Part shown: one piece after another, positions 7,150-64,000 of the stretch
How the letters are laid out: every line of letters starts with the position of its first letter
Numbering within the stretch: position 1 is the first letter of the stretch
Origin: an uncultured bacterium
GTDB taxonomy: Bacteria; Cyanobacteriota; Vampirovibrionia; Gastranaerophilales; Gastranaerophilaceae
DNA: 64,000 nucleotides
Direction: 5' to 3'
Assembly: GCA_902775025.1 (NCBI GenBank)
Contig: CACYKP010000023.1
Location: forward strand, 1 to 64,000
The notes under the pieces: model-generated
The model's database searches: none
The model's input: only the letters and a program-made list of their open reading frames with translations
What the model was told of the DNA's origin: nothing
Program-made: the position numbers and the translations under genes

Positions 7150-7187
7150 CCCCCTCACCCCAACCCTTTCCCGTTGGGAGAGGGAGA
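7150..7187. repeat. CCCTTTCCC/GGGAGAGGG hairpin repeat
   Basis: GC-rich inverted repeat around CCCTTTCCCGTTGGGAGAGGG directly before the EamA gene. The 3' arm GGGAGAGGGAG may also supply the ribosome site for the gene starting at 7195. Confidence 0.6.
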
Positions 7188-14856: not shown

Positions 14857-14892
14857 TCCTTGCCCTTCGGGAGAGGGATAGAGTGAAGGAGT
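14857..14892. repeat. GGGAGAGGG hairpin repeat
   Basis: CTCCTT/AAGGAG outer arms with GCCCTTCGGGAGAGGG inside. The element is shared in part with 31596-31627 (reverse complement GGAGAGGGATAGAG). Confidence 0.55.
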
Positions 14893-31580: not shown

Positions 31581-31627
31581 GGGGTGTTTATAGCCACCCC
31601 GCTCTATCCCTCTCCATTCGGAGAGGG
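31581..31627. repeat. Paired hairpins of the CCCTCTCC/GGAGAGGG family
   Basis: GGGGTG/CACCCC is followed by a perfect CCCTCTCC-ATTC-GGAGAGGG. It may act as the hsp20 terminator, though the T-run is weak. Confidence 0.7.
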
Positions 31628-40582: not shown

Positions 40583-41476
40583 ATGAGTAATTATTATGAA
40601 CTTAAATTATCAATAAATCCTAATATGGAGGATATAGTTTCAGATATTTGTTTTACTAATTTAGCCTGTGAAGGAGTCGTTTTAGCGGAAGAAACATATA
40701 AAGACCTTGTCATGACTGCTACAACCGAGGGAACTTTAAGGGTTTTCCTGAGTGAAGTGAATGAAAATCCTGTAGAAATACTTAAGACCGAACGTGAACT
40801 TCTTAAATCAAGAGGGTTTAGTGATGAAGAATTAGGCAGCTGGGAAGTTTCTTTAGACGAAAAAGAAAATCAGGATTGGTCTAAAAAATGGAAAGAAAAA
40901 TGGACTGTAACCCACGTAACAGATAATATAGCAGTAGTGCCAAGCTGGTTAAACTATGAACCAAAAGAAAACGAGATTACAATAACTTTAGATCCCGGCT
41001 GTGCTTTTGGTACAGGGACTCACCAAACAACACAACTGTGTATGAAAGCTTTGGAAAAATACCTTAAAAAAGGAGATACTATGGCTGATATTGGTACAGG
41101 CTCAGGAATTCTTGCTATTCTGGCTAAAAAACTCGGCGCATCATTAGCTTATGGCTGCGATAATGACGATACGGTTATTGATGTTGCTATAGAAAATGCT
41201 AATAAAAATAATGAAATCGATTGCAAATTTGAATTAAAAACAGCCGATAAATTAACTGAAAAATATGATTTTGTTTGTGCAAATATTTTGCATAATGTTC
41301 TATTTGAAATCATGGGTGATTTAAAAAATATAATGAAAGATGATGGCATTTTATCATTAAGCGGAATTTTAAACGAAAAGAAAGAAGTTGTTTTAGATGC
41401 AATCAAAAGAGAAAACCTTAAAATTATTGATACCATTGAACAAGATCAATGGATTTCGTATGTTGTAACAAAATAA
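40583..41476 (+). CDS. prmA: Ribosomal protein L11 methyltransferase
   Basis: PrmA trimethylates ribosomal protein L11 at several amino groups using S-adenosylmethionine. The N-terminal third is the substrate-recognition domain. The C-terminal domain shows LDPGCAFGTGTHQTTQL, MADIGTGSGILAILAKKLGA and VCANILHNVL, the class I methyltransferase and PrmA NxL-type motifs. The 297 residues match the family. AGAGGAC precedes the ATG and TATAAT lies about 27 nt upstream. A terminator at 41504 separates it from convergent ftsZ. Confidence 0.94.
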   Translation: MSNYYELKLSINPNMEDIVSDICFTNLACEGVVLAEETYKDLVMTATTEGTLRVFLSEVNENPVEILKTERELLKSRGFSDEELGSWEVSLDEKENQDWSKKWKEKWTVTHVTDNIAVVPSWLNYEPKENEITITLDPGCAFGTGTHQTTQLCMKALEKYLKKGDTMADIGTGSGILAILAKKLGASLAYGCDNDDTVIDVAIENANKNNEIDCKFELKTADKLTEKYDFVCANILHNVLFEIMGDLKNIMKDDGILSLSGILNEKKEVVLDAIKRENLKIIDTIEQDQWISYVVTK

Positions 41477-61382: not shown

Positions 61383-62237
61383 CTATTTTAAATATATATT
61401 ATCAATCAATCTTACATTTTCTACCCTGCACGCTATAAGGGCTATTGAATTATCATCTGCTTTAATTTTGTTTTCCAAAGTATCTCTGTCAACAATTTCT
61501 AAGTATTCCATATCTTGTTTGTCTGTTAAGAAACTGTATGCAGTTTCTTTCAGAGCGCCGACTTCTGTTATACCTTTTTTGTAGCAGGTTTTAATGTTAT
61601 TAAGAATTTTGCTTAACACAAGTGCATCTTTTTTACCTTCTTCTGTCAGATACTTATTTCTTGAACTTAGTGCCAAACCTGATTCTTCTCTTATTATGGG
61701 GCATTGAATAATTTTTATAGGTACATTCAAGTCTTTAACCATTTTTTTGATTATAATAACTTGCTGCGCATCCTTTTGTCCAAAAAATGCATAATCAGGT
61801 TGAACAATGTTAAATAATTTTAATACTACCGTACAAACTCCGTCAAAGTGTCCTGTTCTTGATTTACCGCAAAGCGTATTAACATAGAAAAACGGCGGAC
61901 AAACATAAGTAAGAGTGTCATTTGAAAGTCTTTGACCTTTACCATACATCTCGTCTGCTGATGGTGCAAAAACAATATCAACACCTTCGTTATTACATAA
62001 TTCCATATCTGCATCCAATGTTCTGGGGTATTTGTCAAAATCTTCCGACGGCCCGAATTGGATAGGATTAACAAAGTCTGATACGACAACTTTGTCGCAA
62101 GTTTCTTTTGCTTTCTTTATCAGGCTCAAATGTCCGGCATGGAGTGCGCCCATCGTCGGAACAAGACCAACGCTTAAACCCTCTTTTCGCCATTTTTTTA
62201 CTTCTGCTCTTACTTCCTCTATATAATGTAATAACAT
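61383..62237 (-). CDS. panC: Pantothenate synthetase
   Basis: PanC ligates pantoate and beta-alanine with ATP to make pantothenate. The 284 residues have GLVPTMGALHAGHLSLIKKA with the HxGH nucleotidyltransferase motif. FVNPIQFGPSEDFDKYPRTL, FFGQKDAQQVIIIKKMVKDL and LALSSRNKYLTEEGK, the KMSKS-like region, follow. GAGGGGGATAAA precedes the ATG. It is unlinked to panB and panE in the window but completes the pathway with them; panD is not seen. Confidence 0.95.
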   Translation of the reverse strand: MLLHYIEEVRAEVKKWRKEGLSVGLVPTMGALHAGHLSLIKKAKETCDKVVVSDFVNPIQFGPSEDFDKYPRTLDADMELCNNEGVDIVFAPSADEMYGKGQRLSNDTLTYVCPPFFYVNTLCGKSRTGHFDGVCTVVLKLFNIVQPDYAFFGQKDAQQVIIIKKMVKDLNVPIKIIQCPIIREESGLALSSRNKYLTEEGKKDALVLSKILNNIKTCYKKGITEVGALKETAYSFLTDKQDMEYLEIVDRDTLENKIKADDNSIALIACRVENVRLIDNIYLK

Positions 62238-62433
62238 TTTATCCCCCTCTTATTAAATTTATAAACAAATTATACCACATGATTATTAAACAGGTAATTC
62301 AATTACCCATTTAGGCAATGTAAATAATAAAAAACATTTGATAATAAACATGGGATAAGAATAAAAGGAGGTGAAAAAGTTTTTCCCGCAAAAGTTTTCT
62401 AATAGCCATTAAATTATAAAAGGAGGTGTAATT

Positions 62434-62664
62434 ATGCATATTCTAAGAATGATAGCTTATGCTCTTGTAATTACAGGTGCTATCGTTTGGGGTATAGTTG
62501 GTTTCTTTAACTATAATGTTGTAGCTGCGCTATTTGGCGATGCAACACTGATTTCAAGAATAGTATACTCTCTTGTCGGTATAAGCGGTATTGTTCTGCT
62601 TGCAACAACTGAATACGAAGAAGCAGGTTGTTTCTGCGACTGTCATGATGAAACAAGATACTAA
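62434..62664 (+). CDS. DUF378 small membrane protein with a Cys-rich tail
   Basis: This 76-residue protein has two transmembrane helices (IAYALVITGAIVWGIVGFFN and ISRIVYSLVGISGIVLLATT), the DUF378/YuzA pattern. The last 15 residues add EEAGCFCDCHDET, three Cys plus a His, absent from the typical family and possibly a metal or redox site. GGAGGTG precedes the ATG. A second AAAGGAGGTG about 50 bp upstream has no obvious start codon. Confidence 0.8.
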   Translation: MHILRMIAYALVITGAIVWGIVGFFNYNVVAALFGDATLISRIVYSLVGISGIVLLATTEYEEAGCFCDCHDETRY

Positions 62665-62691
62665 ATCCCATTTCACGCATCTAATATAAAA

Positions 62692-62775
62692 AATACCCAC
62701 CCCAACCCTTCCTGATTAGGGAGGAAGCAGCTCTTAACCTTTCGTAAGAAAGGATTAGAGATGCTGGTGGGTATT
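62692..62775. ncRNA. Candidate structured RNA (three-way junction with GNRA loop)
   Basis: Outer stem AATACCCACC (62692-62701) / GGTGGGTATT (62766-62775). Arm 1 is CCTTCC/GGGAGG (62707-62724). Arm 2 spans 62727-62764 with GCA-CTC...GAG-TGC and CCTTTC-GTAA-GAAAGG, a GNRA-type tetraloop. A T-run follows on the minus strand. No coding potential is evident. Confidence 0.55.
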
Positions 62776-62869
62776 AATTTAATGACTTTTTAGCCGCCAT
62801 CCGAAAGTGAGACATATAACACTAGGGATTTTTATTAAAATTTTACTTTTTATTTATCCTATTATTTTA

Positions 62870-62920
62870 TTGACAATATAAAAAAACTTTGCGATAATAA
62901 TGATAATGATTATCATTATT
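62870..62920 (+). promoter_or_regulatory. fur promoter overlapped by a perfect Fur-type operator
   Basis: TTGACA (62870-62875), a 17-base spacer and GATAAT (62893-62898) form the promoter. A perfect 25-bp palindrome with arms AATAATGATAAT/ATTATCATTATT (62896-62920) contains the Fur 7-1-7 box TGATAATNATTATCA. Confidence 0.88.
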
Positions 62921-62934
62921 GGGAAGTGAGATTA

Positions 62935-63375
62935 ATGAGGAATTCAAAGCAAAAAGACATTGTTTTGTTGGCTTTAGATGAATATCGTGTTCATCCGACT
63001 GCAGAAGAATTGTATAAATATATTCATCAAAAACATTCAGATATTGGTGTTGCAACAGTGTATCGCAATCTTAATAAACTGTCTGAAAAAGGTTTGATAA
63101 AAAAAATTACGGGACTTGACGGATCTTCTCATTTTGACAGTTGTACAGAACCACATTTTCATTTTATATGTGATTGCTGCGGAAAAATTTATGATATTCC
63201 CATGAATATCAGTAATTATTTAATCTCAAAAGCAGAAGAATTTACGGATTGCAAAATTACCTCTATGGATATGAGTTTTAGAGGATTATGCAGAGAATGT
63301 GAAGACAAACACAGAGGCAGTCCTATTTTTGAGGATAAAGAATTGGAAATGTTATTAGCTGCGGGAGTTACATAA
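62935..63375 (+). CDS. fur: Ferric uptake regulator (Fur family)
   Basis: This 146-residue Fur-family regulator has an N-terminal winged helix with YRVHPTAEELYKYIHQKHSD and IGVATVYRNLNKLSEKGLIK. The metal-sensing C-terminus has DGSSHFDSCTEPHFHFICDC with CCGKIYDIP and later LCREC, two Cys pairs for structural zinc. Its own promoter is overlapped by a perfect Fur box, which supports Fur over PerR or Zur and indicates autoregulation. GGGAAGTGAGATTA precedes the ATG at 62935; an upstream GTG at 62926 is not preferred. Confidence 0.9.
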   Translation: MRNSKQKDIVLLALDEYRVHPTAEELYKYIHQKHSDIGVATVYRNLNKLSEKGLIKKITGLDGSSHFDSCTEPHFHFICDCCGKIYDIPMNISNYLISKAEEFTDCKITSMDMSFRGLCRECEDKHRGSPIFEDKELEMLLAAGVT

Positions 63376-63486
63376 TATTTAATTGTTGGAGAAACAATTT
63401 ATATAAGTTAATAAATTTTTAATTAAAACATAAAGTAGTATAATAAGAGTTCATATAAAAATAAGTACAAAGGAGAAATATAAAAA

Positions 63487-64000
63487 ATGGAAGCAACATT
63501 AGAACGCTCAGCCGAAAAGAAATATTCAACAACAGAGTTTGTCGGCGGAAAATGGCAAAAAGAGATTAATGTAAGAGATTTTATACAAAGAAACTATACA
63601 CCTTATGATGGTGATTCAAGTTTTCTTACAGGTCCGACAAAAGCTACAAAAAAACTTTGGGAAGAATGTTGTGATTTGTTTAAGAAAGAACGGGAAAACG
63701 GCGGTGTTCTTGATATGGATACAAAAATTGTTTCTACAATTACTTCTCACGGTGCAGGATATATTGATAAGCCGTTGGAAAAGATTGTGGGTTTGCAAAC
63801 CGATAAACCGCTTAAACGTTCCCTTCAGCCTTTTGGCGGAATAAGAATGGCAGAAGGCGCATGCAAATCTTATGGGTATGAAGTTGATCCTGAAATAAGC
63901 GAAATATTTACAAAATATAGAAAAACTCACAACCAAGGTGTATTTGATGCATATACTCCTGAGATGAAACGTGCAAGACACGCTGCAATTCTAACAGGCT
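63487..64000 (+). CDS. pflB: Pyruvate formate-lyase, 5' part (cut by the window edge)
   Basis: PflB cleaves pyruvate with CoA to acetyl-CoA and formate by a glycyl radical in anaerobic fermentation. The first 171 codons read METALERSAEKKYSTTEFVG and RDFIQRNYTPYDGDSSFLTG. TSHGAGYIDKPLEKIVGLQT and LKRSLQPFGGIRMAEGACKS follow, closely matching the N-terminal region of formate acetyltransferases. The radical Gly and catalytic Cys lie beyond the edge. AAAGGAGAAATAT precedes the ATG. The gene supports an anaerobic lifestyle. Confidence 0.93.
   Translation, partial: MEATLERSAEKKYSTTEFVGGKWQKEINVRDFIQRNYTPYDGDSSFLTGPTKATKKLWEECCDLFKKERENGGVLDMDTKIVSTITSHGAGYIDKPLEKIVGLQTDKPLKRSLQPFGGIRMAEGACKSYGYEVDPEISEIFTKYRKTHNQGVFDAYTPEMKRARHAAILTG

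Follow-up and report, generated by a model that had tools for sequence, protein, structure and literature searches.

The 84-nt element at positions 62692-62775 of the window, the 64,000-nt stretch of DNA that was analysed as a whole, is one copy of a repeat dispersed in Candidatus Gastranaerophilales and is not a leader of the neighbouring fur gene. Most probably it is a non-autonomous palindromic DNA repeat that would spread when a DUF559 protein cuts or nicks it and repair follows. The repeat is composed of a PIT/TM-type hairpin and a second structured arm, closed by a head and the complement of that head, and the family adds a new, composite form to a known class of repeats. Its copies are dispersed and mostly intergenic, and their fold is kept by compensatory changes. 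The window copy occupies a slot downstream of DUF378 whose content varies between species, and relatives of the repeat as well as copies matched by its own model are found adjacent to DUF559 genes; this last link is the result worth following.

Fold and setting of the element

The 10-bp closing stem, the G-U containing arm and the long GTAA-capped arm described in the initial annotation all form as stated (Table 1). The RNA minimum free energy is -41.0 against a shuffled mean of -19.8, with z of -6.3 on the + strand and -5.3 on the - strand, and 0 of 200 shuffles folded as well on either strand; DNA energy parameters gave z of -6.6 and -6.3. The 7-bp stem of hairpin 1 (62707-62713 with 62718-62724) includes one G-U pair, which is the product of a single C-to-T decay. 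No ORF of at least 60 aa covers the element, in line with the reported lack of coding potential, and G+C amounts to 46% in the element versus 24% in the remainder of the spacer, just as a GC-rich patch in AT-rich surroundings had been noted.

Table 1. Positions of the element, its parts and the adjoining genes in the window
Feature	Position	Strand	Basis or remark
Whole 84-nt three-way element	62692..62775	+	Folds; covariance model R1 103 bits; full-length homologue in G019, 78%
Closing stem, left arm (10 bp with 62766-62775)	62692..62701	+	Fold
Left head (third-strand) tract CCCACCC, mostly inside the left arm of the closing stem	62696-62702	+	Triplex rule, by eye
Hairpin 1, TM/PIT-like triplex-motif hairpin, CCCTTCCT-GATT-AGGGAGG	62706..62724	+	Fold; family hairpin CCCTCCCTnnnnAGGGAGGG
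Arm 2, long interrupted stem, GTAA loop 62744-62747	62726..62765	+	Fold; window subtype fully Watson-Crick
Closing stem, right arm GGTGGGTATT, complement of head	62766..62775	+	Fold
DUF378 (PF04070) membrane-protein gene	62434..62664	+	Stop 27 nt 5' of element
fur-family gene (PF01475), likely start ATG 62935	62935..63375	+	About 150 nt 3' of element
Promoter-like site and Fur-box palindrome of fur	62870..62920	+	Separate from element

Past the closing stem the minus strand reads GGTGGGTATTTTTTATATT, a T-run that was the sole site returned by a terminator pattern scan of 62230-63500. The T-run is real, but fur lies on the + strand, so only an antisense RNA could end at this run. The + strand past the stem (GGTGGGTATTAATTTAATGACTTTTT) has a T-run about a dozen nucleotides away and none directly adjoining the stem, and the scan found no + strand site in the same interval. 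Rfam returned two tRNAs only over the window and nothing at gathering level on the element, while two sub-threshold matches on 62600-62930 at E up to 10, of 17 bits each, were judged to be chance. There is no DUF559 gene beside the window copy, which taken alone is an ordinary repeat, and its sole role for the cell at this place is probably to mark where the DUF378 transcript ends.

The slot 3' of DUF378 varies among relatives. Five species share the convergent gene that comes after DUF378 (proteins 71-93% identical), and among them the slot is filled by a plain hairpin within a spacer of 45 nt in G005 and G017, by CCCTCTCC-type hairpins in G023 and G015, and by a copy of the window element in the opposite orientation in G019; in the source genome the copy is oriented opposite to that of G019, with fur beyond. 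Such a slot looks like the outcome of independent arrivals at a gene end and not like an inherited regulator. As for fur itself, a perfect 12-bp Fur-box-like palindrome (AATAATGATAAT/ATTATCATTATT) at 62896-62920 covers its -10 region, and this palindrome, together with similar boxes 5' of fur in five relatives, suggests that the gene may be autoregulated.

A dispersed repeat family in the genus

In the source genome, BLASTN placed the 5' third of the element at three further sites on contig C18, and in 57 relatives' genomes it recovered numerous partial copies and a single homologue of the full length, which lies in a different context in G019 (78% over 87 nt). Covariance model R1, which was built from three copies and whose matches were counted at E up to 0.01, matched in 34 of 65 genus genomes, with up to 33 copies per genome (33 in G085, 30 each in G070 and G018, 26 in G007, 23 in G083 and 8 in the source genome). 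Of the options offered for the element, the one that stands is that it belongs, in elaborated form, to the CCCTCTCC hairpin repeats: the 5' half matches dispersed copies in its own and related genomes, and the whole 84-nt form is dispersed too. Three more places with CCCTCTCC occur in the window, at 7177-7184, 14870-14877 and 31608-31627 (4 matches in all versus 0.23 expected), and the last alone forms a perfect hairpin.

The fold is under selection within the repeat family. The three-way minimum-energy fold was obtained for 39 of 55 copies, and for 27 of the best 28. Compensatory base changes in relatives, on which the initial annotation had made the structure depend, were looked for in the relatives' copies and found abundantly, with 6 pairs changed on both sides when three copies were compared with the window structure, and 27 of 31 pairs so changed across the 55 copies fitted to the model. 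Covariation in these 55 copies reached 0.393, compared with 0.138 when shuffled (0 of 500) and 0.05-0.09 when slid; in 30 MAFFT-aligned copies, not fitted to the model, it was 0.249 versus 0.116 shuffled (0 of 500). RNAalifold on the MAFFT alignment recovered hairpin 1 alone, a shortfall probably due to differing arm 2 lengths. Moreover, when copies were aligned with 60-nt flanks, conservation ended at the element edges.

Arm 2 exists in two forms among the 55 rows, a Watson-Crick form in 16, to which the window copy belongs, and a form with tandem G.A/A.G in 27, where the mismatches are bordered by covarying pairs. A duplex palindrome would not be expected to preserve mismatches on one strand, so the strand-specific tandem G.A hints that a single folded strand is recognised. 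The GNRA loop was present in 12 of 48 copies scored and is not a family feature.

By crude ORF calling, 37 of 40 placed copies lie outside ORFs of at least 90 aa, and the orientation of neighbouring genes relative to the element is +/- in 12 cases, -/+ in 9, +/+ in 9 and -/- in 1. Copies in L008 (about 1470-1620), L308 and L320 have an outer palindrome in common, TTGCACACCTG...CAGGTGTGCAA, which looks like a second repeat that encloses or extends the element. In addition, a small hairpin, CCCTTACGGG or CCCGCAAGGG, adjoins many copies (L305, L307, L309 and L310; L043, L045 and L047 of G007), and in some lineages it may belong to the element as an additional part.

Relationship to intrastrand-triplex repeats

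Judged by its sequence, the 5' half of the element represents one degenerate unit from the CCCTCTCC intrastrand-triplex repeats, a known family described as PIT or as the G/C-rich triplex motif TM, for example TM-ECO of E. coli (Holder et al. 2015, PMC4666352). The left part is laid out as an outward head CCCACCCA, CAA, the arm CCCTTCCT, a loop and AGGGAGG. As in PIT/TM repeats, a C/T arm faces a G/A partner (CCTTCCT/AGGGAGG in the window, 7 pairs including one G-U; CCCTCCCT/AGGGAGGG in the family consensus), and a third strand mirrors the arm, with 7 of 8 positions of CCCACCCA against CCCTTCCT obeying the rule by eye. According to PMC4666352, mobility activities were never found near PIT/TM sites, and the motifs showed no promoter or terminator activity.

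Association with DUF559 genes

The copies on contig C18 flank a 115-aa ORF of PF04480 (DUF559). PF04480 was sought in 57 genomes, which yielded 37 distinct strong genes, and a perfect C/T-arm hairpin lies within 300 nt upstream of 22, downstream of 25 and on both sides of 19 of these genus genes. Among the controls, RAYT and fur loci (112 kb together) contained 5 hairpins, the 64-kb window contained 1 and eight weak PF04480 loci contained 0. Similarly, R1 had 27 matches in 13 of the 37 genus DUF559 loci versus 1 match in 27 control loci.

The association extends across phyla. A DUF559 alignment was used to scan 84,980 species, and of the 568 relatives found the best 80, those nearest to the query, were kept; they include members of Alpha-, Beta- and Gammaproteobacteria, Desulfobacterota, Chloroflexota, Dadabacteria, a Moranbacterium and a Bacteroidete. 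Among these best 80 of 568 genes, 70 have a hairpin within 300 nt and 51 have hairpins on both sides; 124 hairpins fell in 160 bins at 0-99 nt and 32 in 157 bins at 100-199 nt, with almost none beyond 1 kb and none in bins from 1100 nt on. The heads face the DUF559 gene more often than they point away (36 vs 14 upstream, 41 vs 15 downstream; the remaining 40 of 146 had no assignment). The nearest upstream and downstream units carry an identical 7-nt arm in 28 of 35 loci, where 6.0 were expected, and arm type on the DUF559 tree takes 28 changes versus 33.7 when shuffled, which is weak clustering; either the two flanks are kept alike, or the genes enter resident repeats. R1 gave only 5 weak matches in the best 80 of 568 cross-phylum loci: next to DUF559, the 84-nt three-way form is restricted to the genus lineage. 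E. coli genomes searched with a Rouxiella DUF559 stretch gave no match.

The triplex rule could be followed in 106 parsed cross-phylum units, in which 537 of 575 arm C positions are opposed by a C in the head and 137 of 167 arm T positions by an A or T. The mean triplex score of these units is 6.36 of 7 versus 5.04 when permuted (0 of 2000), and for the 32 distinct combinations it is 5.5 versus 4.5 (0 of 2000). At the level of sequence, this triplex covariation shows selection acting on head and hairpin jointly.

Within the genus, the prmA genes of G019 and G015 carry an in-frame insert of about 490 bp in which a hairpin, a small hairpin and a head precede DUF559 and recur after it in mirror order, so that hairpins form the outer ends of the insert. 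The cassette leaves the prmA frame open in both genomes (L245 and L247), and prmA is uninterrupted in seven other relatives, including the ribosomal protein L11 methyltransferase-like gene of the window (41228-41473). From this presence and absence in prmA, we infer that the hairpin-DUF559-hairpin cassette moves; no target-site duplication was readable at the prmA cassette. DUF559 cassettes are also in frame in a long putative helicase/nuclease-like ORF in L105 (1489-3318) and on the minus strand of L128, where several triplex units are translated as LTPPPTPSHKGRG and PLPQGAGE.

Across 34 genus genomes, copy number did not differ significantly with DUF559 presence (13 of 19 with DUF559, 6 of 15 without; Fisher p 0.16). 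G026 (L053-L056) has 15 or more partial copies that are nearly identical, with no PF04480 match, and copies can therefore persist or spread when no DUF559 is resident in the assembly. Searches of a library of PMC papers found no paper on a link between DUF559 and repeats. DUF559 genes and PIT/TM repeats are associated in the loci analysed here, and from this association we infer an activity of the protein. DUF559-transposase segments have been listed among Legionella recombination hotspots, according to PMC12308824.

The DUF559 protein

DUF559 is predicted to adopt a Vsr/homing-endonuclease fold. Its predicted structure (pLDDT 89) matches 3hrl of Neisseria gonorrhoeae (E 4.5e-9), 3r3p, which is I-Bth0305I (9.4e-5), and Vsr (1vsr/1cw0, TM 0.68). 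A profile search of PDB sequences likewise found 3hrl (8.6e-33) and 3r3p (4.7e-4), the only two to pass 0.001; the other 20 rows had E of at least 0.08, were mostly unrelated chains (PvuRts1I at 0.11) and were treated as chance. In 16 DUF559 sequences, E19, E59, D61 and H65 are invariant and D48 is nearly so. A DUF559-containing Vsr-like nuclease, VsrA of Caulobacter, is described in PMC12907096 as the cause of an SOS response.

Origin and spread of the element

Given its association with the repeat, DUF559 probably spreads it. Cassettes bounded on either side by TM units encode the DUF559 protein, which would recognise the folded single strand made of hairpin and third strand, perhaps during replication, and would cut or nick it, after which repair would copy the short element, or the cassette, to intergenic sites elsewhere. 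Against this mechanism stand the weak genome-level correlation, the weak tree signal, the restriction of the three-way form next to DUF559 to one lineage, the recovery of hairpin 1 alone by RNAalifold on the unfitted alignment, and the fact that the data compared include no transposition event. The repeats might instead be a DNA family of the PIT/TM superfamily spread by other means, such as RAYT, replication slippage or recombination, with DUF559 as a passenger that prefers repeats in the way of a homing gene in its target. The flank arm types, which agree with each other and follow the gene tree only weakly, look as if the gene had entered resident repeats, and G026 and G031 hold copies with no strong DUF559 match. 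We nevertheless regard a passenger as unlikely, since the prmA cassette arrived with both of its hairpins while relatives' prmA has none, and the control loci are poor in hairpins. RAYT (PF01797) is present in 25 of 57 genomes and was considered as a mover but rejected; the head motif was found in 0 of 20 RAYT loci, and R1 had one match in them (L083).

A functional RNA element, acting as a 3'-end structure, terminator or stabiliser of DUF378 and selected at gene ends, would account for the plain hairpin that fills the slot in most relatives (by eye), for the co-directional orientation of the element in 9 of 10 copies between tandem genes, and for the mismatches kept on one strand of arm 2. 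Such a role appears quite improbable, as the + strand stem is not directly followed by a T-run, the slot copy of G019 has the opposite orientation, and PIT/TM motifs lack promoter or terminator activity according to PMC4666352. The small RNA or iron riboregulator tied to fur, which the initial annotation had suggested, fared worst. Its position 5' of fur and stable fold speak for it, but R1 matched in 0 of 7 other fur loci, on which ground a fur leader was rejected; in 5 of these 7, whose upstream regions were inspected, Fur boxes were present and the upstream neighbours were different. Moreover, fur has a promoter and Fur boxes of its own, dozens of copies lie elsewhere in the genus and Rfam gave no match at gathering level, so that a fur-linked RNA is extremely unlikely.

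A spread of the repeat by DUF559 remains the reading that we favour. Although hundreds of genomes have long been known to contain PIT/TM repeats, it is the DUF559 link that provides a candidate mover for them, and it also connects a DNA structure with a domain of unknown function. The questions of the mover and of DUF559 function can both be tested with one purified protein and one set of oligonucleotides.

Comparison with known systems

RAYT is a HUH transposase, unlike the partner found here, which has a predicted Vsr fold. It is conceivable, and we offer this only tentatively, that DUF559 and PIT/TM repeats make up a separate class of bacterial mobile elements parallel to RAYT/REP, in which a single-domain protein of Vsr/homing-endonuclease fold would recognise a folded strand and in this way spread both its own cassette and gene-less repeats in many phyla; the folded strand would be the hairpin with its third strand, and here a three-way junction with a tandem G.A arm. 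REP/REPIN with RAYT, as far as the excerpts of PMC3116915, PMC2817692 and PMC3733652 describe them, are likewise short dispersed head-to-head palindromes that are non-autonomous and have a repeat-flanked partner gene. In contrast to REP/REPIN, the present repeats have no constant unpaired GTAG (or CGTC) tag, since GCAG in the window and GTAG or GCTG elsewhere lie within the paired base of arm 2, and RAYT loci are without the repeat head. Rickettsia palindromic elements are said to be miniature elements inserted in frame in genes. As with these, some copies here are translated within host ORFs, but a whole nuclease cassette is in frame instead of a short palindrome alone; the Rickettsia elements are named in PMC3733652. 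DUF559 structurally matches the EDxHD homing endonuclease I-Bth0305I (PDB 3r3p) and Vsr, and VsrA contains the DUF559 domain; an association with repeats, as found here, is not described in the passages of PMC12907096 examined.

The closest relatives are the PIT/TM repeats. The family shares with them, as they appear in the excerpts of PMC4666352, a hairpin with a pyrimidine and a purine arm, a 3-nt loop to an arm-mirroring third-strand head, and an intergenic occurrence in many copies and many phyla. It departs from the excerpted description, in which mobility genes are absent from the sites, in that repeats here flank DUF559, and it represents an AT-rich lineage version in which one unit is joined to a second structured arm and a complementary head to form a three-way junction.
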